NCBI RefSeq assembly: GCF_003151135.1
Contig: NZ_QEQK01000005.1
Coordinates: 62,001 to 126,000 of the forward strand
DNA length: 64,000 nt
Origin: Abyssibacter profundi
GTDB taxonomy: Bacteria; Pseudomonadota; Gammaproteobacteria; Nevskiales; OUC007
Reading direction: 5' to 3'
The notes beneath the pieces were generated by a model that made no database searches, was not told where the DNA came from, and saw only the letters and a list, made by a program, of their open reading frames with translations. Each line of letters begins with the position of its first letter. Position 1 is the first letter of the stretch. Below are positions 29,986 to 38,031 of the stretch, one piece after another. The position numbers and the translations under genes are program-made.

Positions 29986-30128
29986 GGTGACCTCGTGGCT
30001 TGGATGTGGGGGATAAGACCGGGGCAAACCGGGTTTCTTGCTAGGGCGTCGTCCGGGCTGTCGGGTTCGGTACCATGCACCGCTGATCGCATTGTTGACC
30101 GAAGGGCATTGTCATGATTCCCGCCGGC

Positions 30129-30139
30129 ATAAGTGATAC
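30129..30139 (+). repeat. Left border repeat of the recombinase element
   Basis: ATAAGTGATAC at 30129-30139. Its first nine bases recur inverted at 35220-35228, and its last nine recur in direct orientation at 35187-35195. It lies 20 bases upstream of the first recombinase ATG. Confidence 0.55.
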
Positions 30140-30158
30140 CTGGTGTTAGATTGGTCGT

Positions 30159-31316
30159 ATGGACCTCTTCTATAGCACCAGCAAGTTCAAGCTCAACGGC
30201 CAGAGCTACACAGGTTTCCCGATCCTGATCTCAGAGGAAGGGAAGGTCGTGGGAGAAGCTCTCGACTTCTGTATCACCTACCTGATCAAGCGTGGTCGGG
30301 TTGAATCGAAGAAGTCTTGGGTGACCTACGGGAAGGCGCTTTACCAGTTCTTCGGGTGGTGCGAAGCCAATGCCATCGATTGGCGAGATGTCGGCAATGA
30401 CCGAGAGGCGACCATCTTGGCTGAGTTCCGAGACTGGAACCTGAGCGAAGAGGGTGGAAGTCTGGCGGCAAGGACGGTAAACGCTCGCATGCGGCTGCTG
30501 TGTGCGTTCTATCGCTACGCGGCAAATAAGGGCTGGGTTGCGTCTGTCCCGTATGACATGGAGACGATCACCGTGAGGCAGCCCAAGGGGTTCCTCGCCC
30601 ATGTCGATGCCAGTGGTGGGGAGCGAGTGTCGGCAGACGTGATGCTGAAGACGCCGAGAACCTTGATCCGCGTGCTGACTAAGTATCAATCCCTGGACCT
30701 GTTGAACGCCATCAAGAACCCGACGCACAGACTGATGGTGCGATTGGGGCTGACGACCGGACTGCGCCGCGAGGAGCTGGCGACGTTCCCGTTGAAATAC
30801 GTCATCAACCCCGTCACCTACACAAAGCATCGCTCATTCGTCCGGGTCAATCTTGATCCGAGGGACATGGTGATCAAACGGAATCAGCCGAGAGGGATCG
30901 ATGTGCCGCGCACGGTTATGGAAGACCTGTGGCAATACGTGATCCATGAGCGGCACCAGTTAGAAAGCCTCTCTGGCCAGGCTCAGCCGACGCTCTTTCT
31001 GACGGCGGATGGCCTGCCCTATGCCAACGATGGCGCAGCGTTCCTGGGCATTGTGAAGCGGGCTGGTGAGATTGCTGGTATCCCCTACGTCAATGTCCAT
31101 GTGCTGCGGCATACCTACGCGACACACACGCTGTACGCGATGATGAAATCCAAGGCTCAGACGCACGCACTGATGTATGTGCGCGACCGGTTGGGTCATG
31201 CGTCGGTGACCACGACCGAGAAGTACCTGCACTGCTTCTCCGAGTTGGAGGACGCGCTGATGAACGATTACCAGAACGAGATCGATGTCATCAGCCAGGA
31301 GGTCGCCTGTGGCTAA
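30159..31316 (+). CDS. Tyrosine recombinase 1 of the element (TnpA-like)
   Basis: 385 residues. After an SAM-like core-binding domain (SKKSWVTYGKALYQFFGWCEANAIDW…), the catalytic domain has Arg I in LGLTTGLRREEL, His-x-x-Arg in VHVLRHTYATH, and RLGHASVTTTEKYLH with His and the nucleophilic Tyr. All catalytic residues are present, so this should be an active DNA strand-exchange enzyme. The next gene's GTG start lies inside its last codons. Its size is close to Tn554 TnpA (about 360 residues). Confidence 0.9.
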   Translation: MDLFYSTSKFKLNGQSYTGFPILISEEGKVVGEALDFCITYLIKRGRVESKKSWVTYGKALYQFFGWCEANAIDWRDVGNDREATILAEFRDWNLSEEGGSLAARTVNARMRLLCAFYRYAANKGWVASVPYDMETITVRQPKGFLAHVDASGGERVSADVMLKTPRTLIRVLTKYQSLDLLNAIKNPTHRLMVRLGLTTGLRREELATFPLKYVINPVTYTKHRSFVRVNLDPRDMVIKRNQPRGIDVPRTVMEDLWQYVIHERHQLESLSGQAQPTLFLTADGLPYANDGAAFLGIVKRAGEIAGIPYVNVHVLRHTYATHTLYAMMKSKAQTHALMYVRDRLGHASVTTTEKYLHCFSELEDALMNDYQNEIDVISQEVACG

Positions 31317-32925
31317 GAAGCCGTTGCGGTCATCCGCGTCCCGGCCCTCGAAAGCGGCCAACGACGACACGTTGGATCTCACCACCCTGCCGCCCGCGCA
31401 GACTGTGGTGCGGCTACCAGAGAACGCAAGCGCCTTTCGCAACCTCGACTTCGGCAGGTTTTACGGAACCGGCTGCGATGTCGTGGTGTATGCCTGTCAG
31501 CGGACGCTGGAACGCATGGCTGAGGGGAGCGCAAAGAGCGCTGGAAAGACGCTCAGCCCGGCGACCATTAGGTACTACTTCGGTAGCGGCCTGGCAGCCT
31601 TCCTGCCGCACTGCGCGACGATGGCTGCCGCGCTGGGGCGCGAGCTGCGGCTGGACGACATAGACCGCGACCTGATCGATCACTTCATTGCCGAGTTGCG
31701 GCAATCGGGGGGCACGCTCTCAACGCCGAAAAACCGGTACGCAGCGGCCAAATCGGTGCTGGTTGCCATGGGGCAGTCAGGCTGGATTACCCAAGACATC
31801 TTTCCCCGTAACCCCTTCCCGAACTCCAACCGATCGAAGAAGGGTCAGGCTGCACTCAGCGAACCCGAGCGCAAGGCCGTGCTGCGGGCGCTGAAAGCGG
31901 ATATGCGGGACATCATCAAAGGCAGCGACCCGCTGACCAGTGAAGAGCTGAGCGTCTGTCTGCTGGCGATTGCGGCCCGCACAGGTCTCAATCCCACACC
32001 GGCACTGGAACTGCTAACGGATTGCCTGCAACCGCATCCGCTCAAGGCGGATCGCTATGTGCTGGTGAGCTATAAGCGGCGTGGCAACGCAACCCGCATC
32101 CAGAGCCTGCGTCGCTCGGCTGACATCGAGGCCATGGTGACGGCTCTGCCTGACGTCGCGCGGGTGATCGATCTTATCCGTGACCGCAATGCTGAGCCGC
32201 GTCAGAGTAGCCAGCACCCGTCGTCGCTGTTTGTATATGAATCGAGAGGCCTAAACACCGCCGGGGCGAAATCACGACTGTCGAATAACGTTCTCAGCCA
32301 TGGAATCACCGCATTCTGCAAACGCCATGATCTGCGTGATGCGGACGGCAAGCCCCTGCGCCTGAACCTGATGCGCCTCCGCAAGACCTTCGAAAACCGC
32401 TTGTTTTCGCTCTCTGGCCAGGACCCATTCCTCACAGCAAAGCTCGGAGGGCATACCCCGAAGGTCTCCAACGACCACTACCTGGAGGCTCCGGAAACAG
32501 CCGAACGCGACTGGCACTTGATGGGCGAGATTCGTACCGAGCAGCTTTTGTCTCACGGCAAGGTCGCTCCGCTGCCCACACAGAACACGCCGGTGGCCCA
32601 GTGTCGGGACACCCTGACTGGAGAGCTTGCACCACAGAACGGCGAGCACTGTCAGCGGTTTCTGGCCTGCTTGCGCTGCAAGTCCTTCGTAGTGACCGGC
32701 GACGATTTGTACCGTGTCTTCAGCCTCTATTGGATGCTGGTTGGCATGCGACAGAGGATGGGAGCCAGTGCCTGGAAGCGGGTCTACGGACACATCATCC
32801 GTATCATCGACCGGGAAATCGCCCCGCAATTTGACGCCGAACTGGTGACCATTCAGCGTCAGCGCGCCAAGGCCGATCCGCACCCCTTCTGGCGCGATCC
32901 GGACCTTCTGGAGGGCGCCGCATGA
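31309..32925 (+). CDS. Recombinase-like protein 2 of the element, catalytically altered
   Basis: 538 residues from GTG 31309, which has AGGAGG six bases upstream; an earlier ATG at 31285 lacks this. The catalytic-domain landmarks are AARTGLNPTPALELL (where Arg I should follow TGL but Asn is found), LNLMRLRKTFENRL (Arg II present, preceding His replaced by Met) and LGGHTPKVSNDHYL (His and Tyr kept). A C-terminal extension holds CQRFLACLRCKSF, a possible zinc knuckle. The missing Arg I and His suggest reduced or no strand-exchange activity, perhaps a structural or target-binding role. It overlaps both neighbours. Confidence 0.82.
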   Translation: MAKKPLRSSASRPSKAANDDTLDLTTLPPAQTVVRLPENASAFRNLDFGRFYGTGCDVVVYACQRTLERMAEGSAKSAGKTLSPATIRYYFGSGLAAFLPHCATMAAALGRELRLDDIDRDLIDHFIAELRQSGGTLSTPKNRYAAAKSVLVAMGQSGWITQDIFPRNPFPNSNRSKKGQAALSEPERKAVLRALKADMRDIIKGSDPLTSEELSVCLLAIAARTGLNPTPALELLTDCLQPHPLKADRYVLVSYKRRGNATRIQSLRRSADIEAMVTALPDVARVIDLIRDRNAEPRQSSQHPSSLFVYESRGLNTAGAKSRLSNNVLSHGITAFCKRHDLRDADGKPLRLNLMRLRKTFENRLFSLSGQDPFLTAKLGGHTPKVSNDHYLEAPETAERDWHLMGEIRTEQLLSHGKVAPLPTQNTPVAQCRDTLTGELAPQNGEHCQRFLACLRCKSFVVTGDDLYRVFSLYWMLVGMRQRMGASAWKRVYGHIIRIIDREIAPQFDAELVTIQRQRAKADPHPFWRDPDLLEGAA

Positions 32926-34775
32926 ACGAAGCCGCCTTCCGGGCAGAACAGCTCAAAGCCCTGAGGGGCGCTGAGAGCGGCGAACTCGCCGCCAACGCCG
33001 TCATTACTGGCTTTCGCCTCGACGACGGCAGCTATCACGTCCTAAGCCGCTATGGGGATCCGGTCTGGACCTTGCCCGACAGCCTCTTCGCGGCGGGGAC
33101 CAAGGACAGCAAGAAGAAACTGAACTTCGAGCGGGTGCCGGCGGCCTTCCGGGTGACGATGCGAGCTTGTGTCGCGCGCTACATGCTGGTGGGGATTGAG
33201 GGGCGTGTCCGACCCAAGGGAGGGACGATCCGCAACTTCTTCGAGGGCACGTACTCCTATCTGGCTTGGCTCGATGAGCGAGGCATCAAGCGTCTAAGCA
33301 GCGCATCCCCGCTGATCGCACAGCAATATGTGGACTACTGCCGGGCGATCACACGCAAGGGCAAGGCTTTGTCGGCAGGCACTTTGATGGGGCGATATGT
33401 GGCTGTGGAGACCCTGCATTTTCTCAGCGGTCACACCGCCGACCCGATGCCCCATCCTTGGCCGGAGTCTTCGGCAAAGCACCTCGCAGGCCTGACGGGG
33501 CAGAACAACCCCCACCTTGCAGAAGCAAAGACCACCATCATCCCGGATGCGGTGTTGGGGCCGCTGTTTCAGGCCGCCGTGGAGTGGCTGGATCGGGCGG
33601 ATGAGATTATCGACCGGCGGGATCAGATTGCGGCCTGGAAGGCACAGGGGAGGTCTTGGTACTACATCACGCCGCGACTCAAGCAGGCCGGCTGGACGAA
33701 AGGCTCGGTCAATGAGGCGGTACGACATCTGCAATCGGCCAGCATGGTCATCATCTTGGTCACCAGCGGAATTCGCGTCTCGGAACTCTGCTCACTGGAA
33801 ATCGGGTGCGCCTACACCCAGGTCGGTGAGCACGGCGATCGATTCCACTGGGTGCGGGGTATCAGCTACAAGACGGGAGCTGGCCCTTGCGAATGGCTCG
33901 TCGCCGAACTAACCCATCGGGCGATTGCCGTGGCCGAGCGTGTGGCCGAGCCGCTGCGAGCTCGGCTCAAGGATTCCGTCGACGCGTTGCTCGCCGACAA
34001 TCCGCGCGACCATGACATTACGCGGTTGAGCGAGCACGCCAAGCGGCTGTTTCTGGCTGTCCAAATGCGGAAGAACAATCGGGTCGGGACGCTTTCCAGC
34101 ATTTCGGTCATTGATCGCCTCAATGCGTTTGCGGCCCAGTGTGGACTCGACTGGCACTTCGCACCCCACCAGTTTCGACGCACCTTTGCCGTGTATGCGG
34201 CGCACAGCGCGTTCGGTGACCTGCGCTATTTACGCGATCACTTCAAGCACTGGTCGTTGGACATGACCAGCCTGTACGCGATGAATCGGGAGCAGGACGC
34301 CGAACTCTACGATGAAGTGGGTTCTGCGGCGGTGAGCATCAAGACGGATCTCCTGGAACACTGGCTGGAGCCGGATGCGATCCTAGCCGGCGGTGCCTCC
34401 GAGCCGGTCCGAGCCTTCCGGGCCAAGAACGAAGCCGTAAAGACCGAGGCGGGCCGTGCCGAGATGGCCAAATCGGTCAGTCCACTGGTGAATATCCGCG
34501 CGACCGGTGTGGCGTGGTGTACCGCCGATACGGGCGGCTGCAACGGTGGCCAGGGCGCCGAGAAGACACGCTGTGGCGATTGCGGCAATGCGGTCATTGA
34601 CGAATCCCGAAAGCCCATCTGGCAGGGCATCTATGCCCAACAGCTAGAACTGCGCGACCTGCCCGATATTGGCCCCGGTGGCCAGGAGCGCGTCGAGCGC
34701 GACATCGCACGATGCCGCAAGGTCCTGATCGACCTGGGCGCGGCTGAAGAGGAGCTTGACGATGTCGCAACCTGA
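32922..34775 (+). CDS. Tyrosine recombinase 3 of the element (TnpB-like)
   Basis: 617 residues, close to Tn554 TnpB (about 630). A long N-terminal half with core-binding helices is followed by the catalytic domain: Arg I in LVTSGIRVSELCSLEIG, His-x-x-Arg in APHQFRRTFAVYAAH, and FKHWSLDMTSLYAM with His/Trp and Tyr. The C-terminus has a Cys-rich segment, WCTADTGGCNGG and TRCGDCGNAV, probably zinc-binding. ATG 32922 overlaps the previous stop by 4 bases, and its own end overlaps the small HTH gene by 14 bases. Confidence 0.88.
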   Translation: MNEAAFRAEQLKALRGAESGELAANAVITGFRLDDGSYHVLSRYGDPVWTLPDSLFAAGTKDSKKKLNFERVPAAFRVTMRACVARYMLVGIEGRVRPKGGTIRNFFEGTYSYLAWLDERGIKRLSSASPLIAQQYVDYCRAITRKGKALSAGTLMGRYVAVETLHFLSGHTADPMPHPWPESSAKHLAGLTGQNNPHLAEAKTTIIPDAVLGPLFQAAVEWLDRADEIIDRRDQIAAWKAQGRSWYYITPRLKQAGWTKGSVNEAVRHLQSASMVIILVTSGIRVSELCSLEIGCAYTQVGEHGDRFHWVRGISYKTGAGPCEWLVAELTHRAIAVAERVAEPLRARLKDSVDALLADNPRDHDITRLSEHAKRLFLAVQMRKNNRVGTLSSISVIDRLNAFAAQCGLDWHFAPHQFRRTFAVYAAHSAFGDLRYLRDHFKHWSLDMTSLYAMNREQDAELYDEVGSAAVSIKTDLLEHWLEPDAILAGGASEPVRAFRAKNEAVKTEAGRAEMAKSVSPLVNIRATGVAWCTADTGGCNGGQGAEKTRCGDCGNAVIDESRKPIWQGIYAQQLELRDLPDIGPGGQERVERDIARCRKVLIDLGAAEEELDDVAT

Positions 34776-35199
34776 GACGAATACACCAACGCGCGGCGAG
34801 CTGACCGCAAAAGCCATACGCCAAGCCATCCTGCGCATCCAACAGGGTCGCCCCAAGGTCGTCAAGGCGGGCCGCAAGCTGAGCATTAAATCCGTGGCTG
34901 AGGAGGCTGGCGTTAGCCGCGCGACAATTCACAACCTCCACCCTGGTCTGGCTGAGCGCATCCGTGAGGCGGGCAACAAGGACGTCAGGGCACAGCGGGA
35001 CAAAAAGAACGCCGCACTGCGCGACCTAAGGGCCAAGTACACGGAGCTGCGGCAAGAGCACATCCGTGCCCGTGAACTCAATCAGGACATGGCCTCTGAA
35101 ATGGCCACGCTGGAGGCTGAGAACCAGCGATTGCGCGCCATTGCGGAGAGCAAAAAAGTGGTCGTTTTCCCGTCGAAAAACTCGAAAAGTGATACATGA
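34762..35199 (+). CDS. DUF6262-like HTH/coiled-coil protein of the element (TnpC-like)
   Basis: 145 residues from ATG 34762, with GAGGA 9 bases upstream; an in-frame TTG lies at 34756. A predicted helix-turn-helix (SIKSVAEEAGVSRATIHNL) is followed by a coiled coil (about residues 75-130: LRDLRAKYTELRQEHIRAREL…EMATLEAENQRLRAI). Tn554 TnpC is a small protein of this general kind that helps orient or stimulate integration. The family name is from memory; position and size support the role. The right border repeat overlaps its stop codon. Confidence 0.75.
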   Translation: MSQPETNTPTRGELTAKAIRQAILRIQQGRPKVVKAGRKLSIKSVAEEAGVSRATIHNLHPGLAERIREAGNKDVRAQRDKKNAALRDLRAKYTELRQEHIRARELNQDMASEMATLEAENQRLRAIAESKKVVVFPSKNSKSDT

Positions 35200-35228
35200 T
35201 GGAAAGTCCTTCAATAACAATCACTTAT
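35187..35228 (+). repeat. Right border repeat pair of the recombinase element
   Basis: AAGTGATAC (35187-35195) and ATCACTTAT (35220-35228) form an inverted pair (AAGTGAT and ATCACTT) about 25 bases apart and match the left border in direct and inverted orientation respectively. Such paired short arms are expected for recombinase binding sites. The first copy overlaps the last codons of the DUF6262-like gene. Confidence 0.55.
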
Positions 35229-35262
35229 CCATATATAACATGTTACCTAAGGACGTAATACC

Positions 35263-38031
35263 ATGACGACCAAGATCGGGCCGGGGGGCGGCCCCTTTCG
35301 ACTGGCTGGCGGGTTCGGCCTGGGGCTGCTGGTGGCCGGCTTGGTGGCCTGCGGGCAGGGCCAGCCGGAGGCGCCGGATACCGAGGTCGTGACCGATTGG
35401 GTGCAGCCGACCGCGGAGCTGCCGGTCCGTGAGCAAGACCTCCCGCTGGGGCAGCTCGGCGAAGCCGTGATTCCCACGCACTACGCGCTGGATCTCGAGA
35501 TTGATCCGGTCCGCGATCAGTTTGCGGGGCGCGTCACCATCGACGTGCGGATCACCGAGCCGGTGGACCGGATTTACCTGCATGGCCGCGGCTTGCAGGT
35601 GTCCGCGGCAACACTGACCGCGGGACAAACGCGGATGACCGCAGACTATGCCCAGTTGCATGACAGCGGTGTGGCGTTGTTGACGCTGCCCGTGGCCGTG
35701 TCGGCCGGTCAGGCGCAACTCGAGCTGGAGTACCAGGCCGATTTCAGCACCACGCTGGACGGGCTCTACAAGGTCGTCGAAAACGACCGGGCCTATGCCT
35801 TCACTCAGTTCGAGGCGATTTCGGCGCGGCTGGCGTTTCCGGGATTCGATGAGCCCCGCTTCAAGGTGCCCTTTGACCTGGCCGTATCGGCCCGGCCCGG
35901 CGATGTGGTGATCACCAGCACGCCGGTGCGGCGCAGCGAAACCACCATCGACGGTGCAATTCGCCACGTCTTTGAAACCACGCCGCCGCTGCCCACCTAT
36001 CTCATTGCGTTTGCGGTTGGCCCCTTCGACATGCGCGAGCCGGGGCCGCTACCCGCCAATGCGGTGCGCGATATTCCGCTGCCGTTTCGGGGCGTTGCAG
36101 CAGCTGGCAAGGGGCCGCAGCTGGCCTACGCGTTGGACGAAACCGAGGCGTTGTTGACACCGCTGGAAGCCTACTTCGGCAGTCCACATCCCTATCCCAA
36201 GCTGGACATCATCGCCGCGCCCGACTTTGCCTTTGGTGCGATGGAAAACGTGGGGGCCATCATCTACCGGGAGCAGTTGCTACTGCTGGATGCGCATGCC
36301 TCACTGGGGCAGCAGCGCAGCTTCGGCATGGTTCACGCCCATGAGCTAGCCCATCAATGGTTTGGCAATCTGGTCACACCGGCCTGGTGGGACGACATCT
36401 GGCTGAACGAGGCATTCGCGACCTGGATGGCCTACAAGGCCGCCGACGCCTGGCGGCCTGATCTGCTCCTGCCGCTGCAGGCCCAGCGCCGGGCGCTGGA
36501 CACCATGGCCACGGATTCGCTGCAGTCCACCCGGCAGATTCGCCAGCCCATCACCTCCAACGACGACATCCTCAACGCCTTTGACGGCATCACCTACCGC
36601 AAAGGTGGGGCGGTGCTGTCGATGTTCGAGCGATTCGTGGGCGAGACAGCATTCCGCGATGGTGTCCGTCTGCACATGGAGCGCCATGCCCACGGTGTCG
36701 CGACAGCGGAAGACTTCATGCAGTCGATTGCCGATGGCAGCCAGAATCCGGATGTCGTGCCGGCGTTCCGTAGCTTCCTGGAACAGCCCGGTGTGCCGCT
36801 GATAGAAACCGGCCTGGACTGTGCGGACGACTCACCCACCCTGACGCTGCGGCAGTCGCGCTACCGCCCGCTGGGCTCTGCGATTGATGCCAATCGCCGC
36901 TGGCAGGTGCCGGTGTGTGTTGCGGCGCTAAGCGGCGACCAGCGCGAGCAGGTCTGTCATCTGTTGACCGAGCCGGACGCCTCGATCCCGCTGGGTCGCT
37001 GCCCCGAGGCCCTGCTGCCCAATGCCGGGGGTGCCGGCTACTACCGCTGGAGCCTGTCCGCCGAGGGCTGGACTGCTTTGCTTCAGCGCTTGGACCAGCT
37101 CACACCGGCCGAACAGCTGTCGCTCATCGACAGCCTCGATGCCGGCTTCCGCGCTGGCGTGGTCCCGTTTGATGTGCTGGCCAATGCGCTGCCCGTCTTG
37201 GCGCAGCAGCCAAACTACGAAGTGGCGACGCGGCTTAGCCAGGCCTGGGCCGAATACCAGTCGCAGCTGGTGGACGCGCCTGTACGGGCTGCGATGAAGG
37301 CGCGGCTGGCCTCGGTGCATGCTCCGCAATTGAGCGAGCAATTGGGGTTAGACCCCCGGCCGGACGAGTCTGCCAATACGGCGTCCCTGCGTGGCGCGCT
37401 GGCGCGCATTCTGGTCGAAGACGCCGATGCACCGGCCTTGCGAGCGCAGCTGGCCCAGCGCGCCGATGCCTATATCGGTCCATCCGATGGCGCCATGGAT
37501 TTGGAAGCGCTCAGTGGTGATCTCATCGGGCCCGCGTTGCAGGCCGGTGTCATCGAGCGCGGGGCAGCCTTCGCACAACGGCTATGGCGTCGGTTTGACG
37601 CCAGCACGGATGCCATCCTGCGTCAGCGCATACTCAAGGCCTTGTCGCGGGCCCCCCAAGCCGATGTGGTGTCCGAGGTGCAGCGTCGCGCCTTGGGTGA
37701 GGGGCTGCGGAGCAATGAAGTCATCCAGGTGTTGCGTGAGCAGTTCGAGACCGCAGCAACGCGGGCCCAGGCCTGGGACTGGTTGCGCCAGGACTTCGAG
37801 GCGATTCGTGAACGTCTACCCGACTATGCCCAAGACCGTCTGGTCGAGACCGCCGAGCACTTCTGCTCCGAGTCACGACGGGCCGAGGTGGTTCGCTTCT
37901 TCGAACCCCGGGTGGATGACCTGATGGGTGCACCGCGGGCCTATGCGCAGACCCTGGAGCGCATCGATCTTTGCCTGGCTTTACGCGAGGCGCGGGCCGA
38001 GCAGATCGCAGCGGTGATGGCTGCGCGCTGA
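35263..38031 (+). CDS. M1 family metallopeptidase (aminopeptidase N-like), lipoprotein
   Basis: 922 residues. The lipoprotein signal is AGLVACGQG. The N-terminal beta domain is followed by the exopeptidase motif GAMEN (residues 325-329), the zinc motif HELAH (360-364) and the downstream Glu in NEAFATWMAYKAAD. The C-terminal half is the ERAP1-like helical domain (from about ADDSPTLTLRQSRY). It releases N-terminal amino acids from peptides, here tethered to a membrane outside the cytoplasm. It begins 34 bases after the right end of the mobile element, so the element may have replaced or supplied its promoter. The ATG at 35263 follows AAGGACG. Confidence 0.93.
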   Translation: MTTKIGPGGGPFRLAGGFGLGLLVAGLVACGQGQPEAPDTEVVTDWVQPTAELPVREQDLPLGQLGEAVIPTHYALDLEIDPVRDQFAGRVTIDVRITEPVDRIYLHGRGLQVSAATLTAGQTRMTADYAQLHDSGVALLTLPVAVSAGQAQLELEYQADFSTTLDGLYKVVENDRAYAFTQFEAISARLAFPGFDEPRFKVPFDLAVSARPGDVVITSTPVRRSETTIDGAIRHVFETTPPLPTYLIAFAVGPFDMREPGPLPANAVRDIPLPFRGVAAAGKGPQLAYALDETEALLTPLEAYFGSPHPYPKLDIIAAPDFAFGAMENVGAIIYREQLLLLDAHASLGQQRSFGMVHAHELAHQWFGNLVTPAWWDDIWLNEAFATWMAYKAADAWRPDLLLPLQAQRRALDTMATDSLQSTRQIRQPITSNDDILNAFDGITYRKGGAVLSMFERFVGETAFRDGVRLHMERHAHGVATAEDFMQSIADGSQNPDVVPAFRSFLEQPGVPLIETGLDCADDSPTLTLRQSRYRPLGSAIDANRRWQVPVCVAALSGDQREQVCHLLTEPDASIPLGRCPEALLPNAGGAGYYRWSLSAEGWTALLQRLDQLTPAEQLSLIDSLDAGFRAGVVPFDVLANALPVLAQQPNYEVATRLSQAWAEYQSQLVDAPVRAAMKARLASVHAPQLSEQLGLDPRPDESANTASLRGALARILVEDADAPALRAQLAQRADAYIGPSDGAMDLEALSGDLIGPALQAGVIERGAAFAQRLWRRFDASTDAILRQRILKALSRAPQADVVSEVQRRALGEGLRSNEVIQVLREQFETAATRAQAWDWLRQDFEAIRERLPDYAQDRLVETAEHFCSESRRAEVVRFFEPRVDDLMGAPRAYAQTLERIDLCLALREARAEQIAAVMAAR

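Follow-up and report, generated by a model that had tools for sequence, protein, structure and literature searches.

A probable autonomous, cargo-free SE-type mobile element at the start codon of an aminopeptidase gene in Abyssibacter profundi

A 64,000-nucleotide stretch of the Abyssibacter profundi genome (contig NZ_QEQK01000005.1, positions 62,001 to 126,000; hereafter the window) probably contains an SE-type mobile element that is autonomous and free of cargo; its insertion, at the ATG that starts an M1-family aminopeptidase gene, is predicted to have occurred by SE-type copy-out/copy-in. The element occupies positions 30117-35259 of the window (5143 bp), with ends defined by homology with relatives. 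It consists of four overlapping open reading frames (ORFs) of 385, 538, 617 and 145 aa, which were proposed by a first-pass annotation of this DNA to fill the insertion; all four are present and intact and do so. The features, all on the forward strand, are the following.

30111-30116, +, left flank of 6 bp, GTCATG, which an SE-type model would derive from the target
30117-30158, +, left end, ATTCCCGCCGGCATAAGTGATACCTG... with subterminal motif ATAAGTGATAC (30129-30139), conserved across unrelated insertion sites
30159-31316, +, gene 1, 385-aa tyrosine recombinase, IntA-like (Pfam Phage_integrase, 2e-11)
31309-32925, +, gene 2, 538-aa recombinase-fold protein, Tfp-like (profile match to SE Tfp)
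32922-34775, +, gene 3, 617-aa large tyrosine recombinase, IntB-like (Pfam Phage_integrase, 5e-9)
34762-35199, +, gene 4, 145-aa helix-turn-helix (HTH) and predicted coiled-coil protein, Srap-like (weak DUF6262 and HTH matches)
35187-35195, +, direct copy of the left subterminal motif, AAGTGATAC (sequence match)
35200-35259, +, right end, ...ATCACTTAT...AACATGTTACCTAAGGACGTAAT, AT-rich (GC 32%)
35260-35265, +, right 6-bp flank ACCATG (ATG ends this flank in each of five copies)
35263-38031, +, host target gene, M1-family aminopeptidase by sequence, with its start codon at 35263 within the right flank

Gene 1 encodes the full R-HxxR-H-Y set of catalytic residues, and the set in gene 3 is also complete. 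Gene 2, which starts with GTG (546 aa if read from an upstream ATG), lacks the first catalytic Arg (TGLN in place of TGLR) and the box II His, and searches of Pfam and NCBIfam returned no match for it. An AlphaFold model of this protein built from three sequences had a mean predicted local distance difference test score (pLDDT) of 35 and was not used. The three recombinases counted in the first-pass annotation thus share the recombinase fold, but by their residues only two, those of genes 1 and 3, look catalytically complete.

This arrangement matches the SE core, which has the order intA-tfp-intB-srap, with complete catalytic residues in IntA and IntB and not in Tfp (PMC9345347, PMC10214605). 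As a reference we used the blaGMA-1 region of pAQU1, which has been named as an SE (PMC10214605), paired with its homologue on the E. coli plasmid p199. Profile comparison with this pair gave probabilities of 98.8% for IntA, 97.8% for Tfp, 99.1% for IntB and 96.1% for Srap; the matches are one-to-one and collinear, and off-diagonal values are near zero. By blastp against a small database, the Tfp-like protein matched the one SE Tfp searched at E=0.011 and the Srap-like protein matched at 8e-7. Other features shared with SEs are a 6-bp junction spacer, a GC content below that of the host and the apparent lack of a mobilisation system. In contrast to SEs, the window lineage is very distant in sequence, lacks cargo, measures 5.14 kb here and uses NNNATG/start-codon targets, and distant homologues of its branch occur also in Beta- and Alphaproteobacteria. 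Published SEs have imperfect terminal inverted repeats of 13-19 bp with motifs C and C' (PMC10214605, PMC9345347), range upward from 6,353 bp with a median of 15.7 kb (PMC10214605), and usually carry cargo such as antibiotic-resistance genes (PMC9345347, PMC10214605). The smallest of these, SE-AmaTe101 (6,353 bp), is also cargo-free (PMC10214605), and judged by its published description is about 1.2 kb larger than the window element.

The four genes are an insertion and are not fixed in the lineage, because a genome of the same genus (G002, locus L013) has msrA, a YHS-domain gene and an M1 peptidase gene side by side and lacks the four genes. This empty site is about 70-77% identical to the window, too diverged for base-level definition of the ends, which is proven for a relative (the G056/G004 pair; gene 2 of G056 is 56% identical) and not for the window copy. 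In G056 (locus L022) the element splits an acyl-CoA dehydrogenase gene that is uninterrupted in G004. Removal of 5135 bp together with one CACATG leaves 600 bp that align ungapped to G004 at 94% identity, and also restores the MFHMMNEARIGVG reading frame. The G056 copy has CACATG on both sides, an exact 6-bp repeat relative to the empty site. The A. profundi genome itself has a single copy, and the M1 peptidase reading frame downstream of it is intact, with homologues in two same-genus genomes that are 67% and 66% identical. The ATG in the left flank has GAAGGG upstream of it and was probably the original start codon of the peptidase gene; the expected empty site in the same species reads ...GGGCATTGTCATGACGACC....

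Short repeats had initially been taken as the borders: an inverted pair, ATAAGTGAT at 30129-30137 and ATCACTTAT at 35220-35228, and a direct pair, AAGTGATAC at 30131-30139 and 35187-35195. These repeats exceed chance, because related copies also have them close to each end and because one relative (L083, see below) carries a single altered form at both of its ends. As ends of the element they were rejected, since conservation runs on outward to 30117 and 35259; both pairs are subterminal, and the ends lie only 12 bp (left) and 31 bp (right) further out. In the window copy and the relatives L006 and L007 (see below) DNA similarity stops at one point, at ATGATT..CGC on the left and at CATGTTAC........TAATnnnATG on the right, and CATGTTAC...TAAT is unchanged in five copies. 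Read inward, the right end begins ATTACG, which matches the left ATT.C in inverted form, and the two ends also have an ACATG-like block in common, although the match is short and gapped. An imperfect 14-nt palindrome (TCCATATATAACAT/ATGTTACCTAAGGA, 35228-35253) covers the inward portion of the right end.

A scan of named genomes identified two close relatives, in Marinobacter goseongensis (L006) and Halioglobus pacificus (L007), with gene 2 79% identical. The former sits before a 133-aa ORF and the latter between purH and purD, and for both sites related genomes free of the insertion are known. The second M. goseongensis copy (L083, contig C50 of G061) is a 5160-bp contig made up of the element alone, starting at ATGATTCCC and stopping just past TAATACAATG. 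Such a contig is expected because an assembler breaks at a repeated element, and it suggests that the M. goseongensis genome holds several copies. In total, five copies of this clade, from four species and at unrelated loci, measure 5143 (window), 5152, 5140, 5147 and 5135 bp. A sister lineage has copies of 5164-5223 bp, in genomes of Marinobacter as well as on plasmids of Marinobacter and Vibrio, and one genome (G923) has two 5176-bp copies, 99.98% identical, at different places of one chromosome. Neither copy of this pair looks like the direct donor of the other, and the 6-bp carry-over rule was not confirmed there. Given the similar lengths across copies and the G923 pair, the lack of cargo is recurrent and such copies can spread. 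The suggestion that this could be a minimal self-moving unit is therefore well supported, by the finding of cargo-free copies (5.13-5.22 kb) in several species at loci unrelated to one another, by the G923 pair and by the base-exact empty site of G056.

The same observations bear on two other explanations. The element could be a fixed or dead remnant, a larger island decayed to its operon alone, as would fit the single copy in its genome and the non-identity of its two 6-bp flanks. However, none of the four ORFs is disrupted, the termini are conserved on both sides, and cargo-free copies of the same size are present in four species of the clade and in the sister clade, including the near-identical G923 pair, so that we regard decay as extremely improbable. 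Alternatively, the element could move only in trans or as a passenger, spread with plasmids or phages by homologous recombination and not by its own recombinases. The sister copies on conjugative plasmids favour this, and we counted on the same side that the viral contigs searched contained no close relative. Plasmid carriage accounts for transfer between cells, but not for precise insertion, and the insertion sites are unrelated with junctions in one 6-bp register; there is very little probability in this explanation.

It had also been proposed that the four genes form the core from which larger islands are built, and more distant members do carry ars, mer and other genes downstream of the four. 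Support for this proposal is partial. In a gene-3 tree, the window clade comprises six rows (support 99/98), including G760, where the four genes are intact but no right end was recognisable in about 26 kb. G760 could represent cargo gain or a decayed copy. The genes following its four (L114, 7985-10283) are on the opposite strand and comprise a helicase-like gene and an unknown gene, possibly a defence module.

Among other known families, the GInts (ginABCD islands, Tn6571-type) resemble the element in general plan: they have a four-gene operon of three recombinase-family genes and a small HTH-type fourth protein, their 3' end is AT-rich and their cuts are staggered by 6 nt (PMC5385486, PMC10121019). 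A small GInt, cut out and pasted in by three recombinases and GinD, would share these features. The non-canonical protein is, however, encoded by the third gene in GInts and by the second in the window element, and the published set always has at least 2.5 kb of cargo between ginD and the right end, compared with 60 bp from the last stop codon to the right end here. For sequence comparison we used an E. coli four-gene island at the 3' end of ssb, found via the published ssb target; no uninterrupted ssb-yjcB stretch is present in about 8% of complete E. coli genomes, and of the five such rows listed, four have their break at one and the same base. The window proteins had no blastp match to this island at E<=0.01, and profile comparison gave only 80% for gene 1 with GinA and 61% for gene 2 with GinC, out of order. 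On these grounds GInt membership was rejected, and a small GInt is a very improbable explanation.

RITs likewise have three adjacent, overlapping recombinase-family genes (PMC3414803, PMC10214605). Their proteins, however, are 315-410 aa and all catalytic, their terminal repeats are 34 bp and they have no fourth gene, and this family was rejected on the sizes and number of the genes here together with the non-catalytic gene 2. Tn554 (tnpA, tnpB and tnpC only) is similar in combining an ordinary and a large catalytic recombinase with a small TnpC-like protein, but it has no counterpart of the 538-aa gene, and this extra gene between the two catalytic recombinase genes excludes it. The Tn554 family carries resistance genes. 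A 6-bp carry-over has been described for Tn554 as well (summarised in PMC10214605).

The flanks of the window element, both M. goseongensis copies, the Halioglobus copy and the G056 copy follow the pattern NNNATG; for the second M. goseongensis copy, the right flank alone was fully readable. In the window and in Halioglobus the 6-mers differ between left and right and the register is the same. The probability that all four independent left flanks end in ATG by chance is about 5e-8. In three of the four known contexts (the M1 peptidase, purD and the Marinobacter ORF) the downstream gene starts with this ATG, and in G056 the ATG is an internal Met codon; each time, the element lies in the sense direction of the target gene. 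There is thus an apparent preference for NNNATG/start-codon targets. The bias to start codons may be partly an effect of survival, since insertions there would do less harm. The alternative that the left ATG belongs to the element is disfavoured by CTG at this position in G760, although for the window copy it stays tenable. By inspection, AAGGA, CGGA or AAGG precedes the ATG at the right end in four of five copies (AAGGA in the window), possibly a ribosome-binding stretch. Also by inspection, in four of five copies a short ORF that begins at the left ATG stops 10-15 nt short of intA; as the copies are related, this hints only weakly at translational coupling to intA. A consensus scan detected no sigma-70-type promoter at the left end or elsewhere in the element.

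By analogy with studied SEs, IntA and IntB would cleave a single strand at each end and religate it across the 6-bp spacer, with the strand bias of that system. Tfp and Srap would be DNA-binding partners with no catalytic role, and the subterminal AAGTGATAC repeats may be the sites that are bound. The product would be a circular copy with the left-hand 6 bp, and the donor would not be cleanly excised. This circle would integrate at an NNNATG-like target, after which the target's 6 bp would flank the left end and the 6 bp brought by the circle the right end. With a target ending in ATG and an element oriented like the gene, the target gene would keep its start codon, and could gain a Shine-Dalgarno-like AAGGA from the right end. 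Host transcription probably drives the four genes, as they have no evident promoter.

Several points weigh against an SE-type element. The element's proteins share little sequence with the SE references (blastp E about 0.01 for Tfp) and a tree puts the two references on a long, separate deep branch, so that applying the SE mechanism here means a transfer across a wide gap at low identity. The unequal window flanks (GTCATG and ACCATG) are weaker than a perfect repeat, though expected in SE transposition, and the left flank of G760 is GATCTG, making NNNATG a preference and no rule. The Shine-Dalgarno and promoter claims come from inspection of a few copies, and movement, a circle and strand bias are not things that sequence can demonstrate. 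The long branch, together with homologues in Beta- and Alphaproteobacteria, where the published PSI-BLAST survey of SEs reported none (PMC10214605), would suit a family distinct from both SEs and GInts, whose gene set is related but whose transposition chemistry is its own. Yet each of the four genes has its single counterpart in the SE core, in the same order, and the junctions agree with the 6-bp spacer rule, and we consider a separate family unlikely, if not negligibly so. An autonomous SE-type element remains our preferred explanation.

More tentatively, and with some doubt, this SE-type lineage may have turned insertion-sequence-like. It would persist without cargo, target NNNATG at start codons in the sense direction, borrow the host promoter and return a start codon and a new ribosome-binding stretch, so that the insertion would be nearly harmless. 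If true, targeting of start codons would be an unusual, low-cost insertion strategy.

The first-pass annotation had regarded the trio plus a small protein as novel. This did not hold: the combination is the published SE core and occurs in another order in GInts, and a cargo-free SE of 6,353 bp has been reported (PMC10214605), such that both the architecture and a cargo-free SE are already known. What is new here is a smaller, indeed the smallest, recurrently cargo-free lineage, with exact termini, NNNATG/start-codon targets and homologues of its branch outside the Gammaproteobacteria. These copies suggest that SE-type machinery can spread without cargo, and that cargo is therefore optional. 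With 5.1 kb, four genes and defined ends, the element is a compact natural system in which to ask why SE-type movement needs two active recombinases, a third that is catalytically degraded and one small HTH protein.

Some neighbouring genes of related elements were recorded. On plasmids, umuC/umuD error-prone polymerase genes are repeatedly found beside, or within, sites where related four-gene elements have inserted (L011 6666-11829, L118, L087 1221-3386, L143 6459-7799 and L086 12786), and the elements in L011 and L118 appear to be inside a umuC reading frame. The ssb-site island of E. coli in L092 (17712-30529) carries Avs4 and an AbiGi-like gene. On plasmid pVb1796, a cargo-free 5177-bp sister element (L003, 6666-11842) is located directly upstream of the integron with blaVMB-1, which lies outside the right end of that element.

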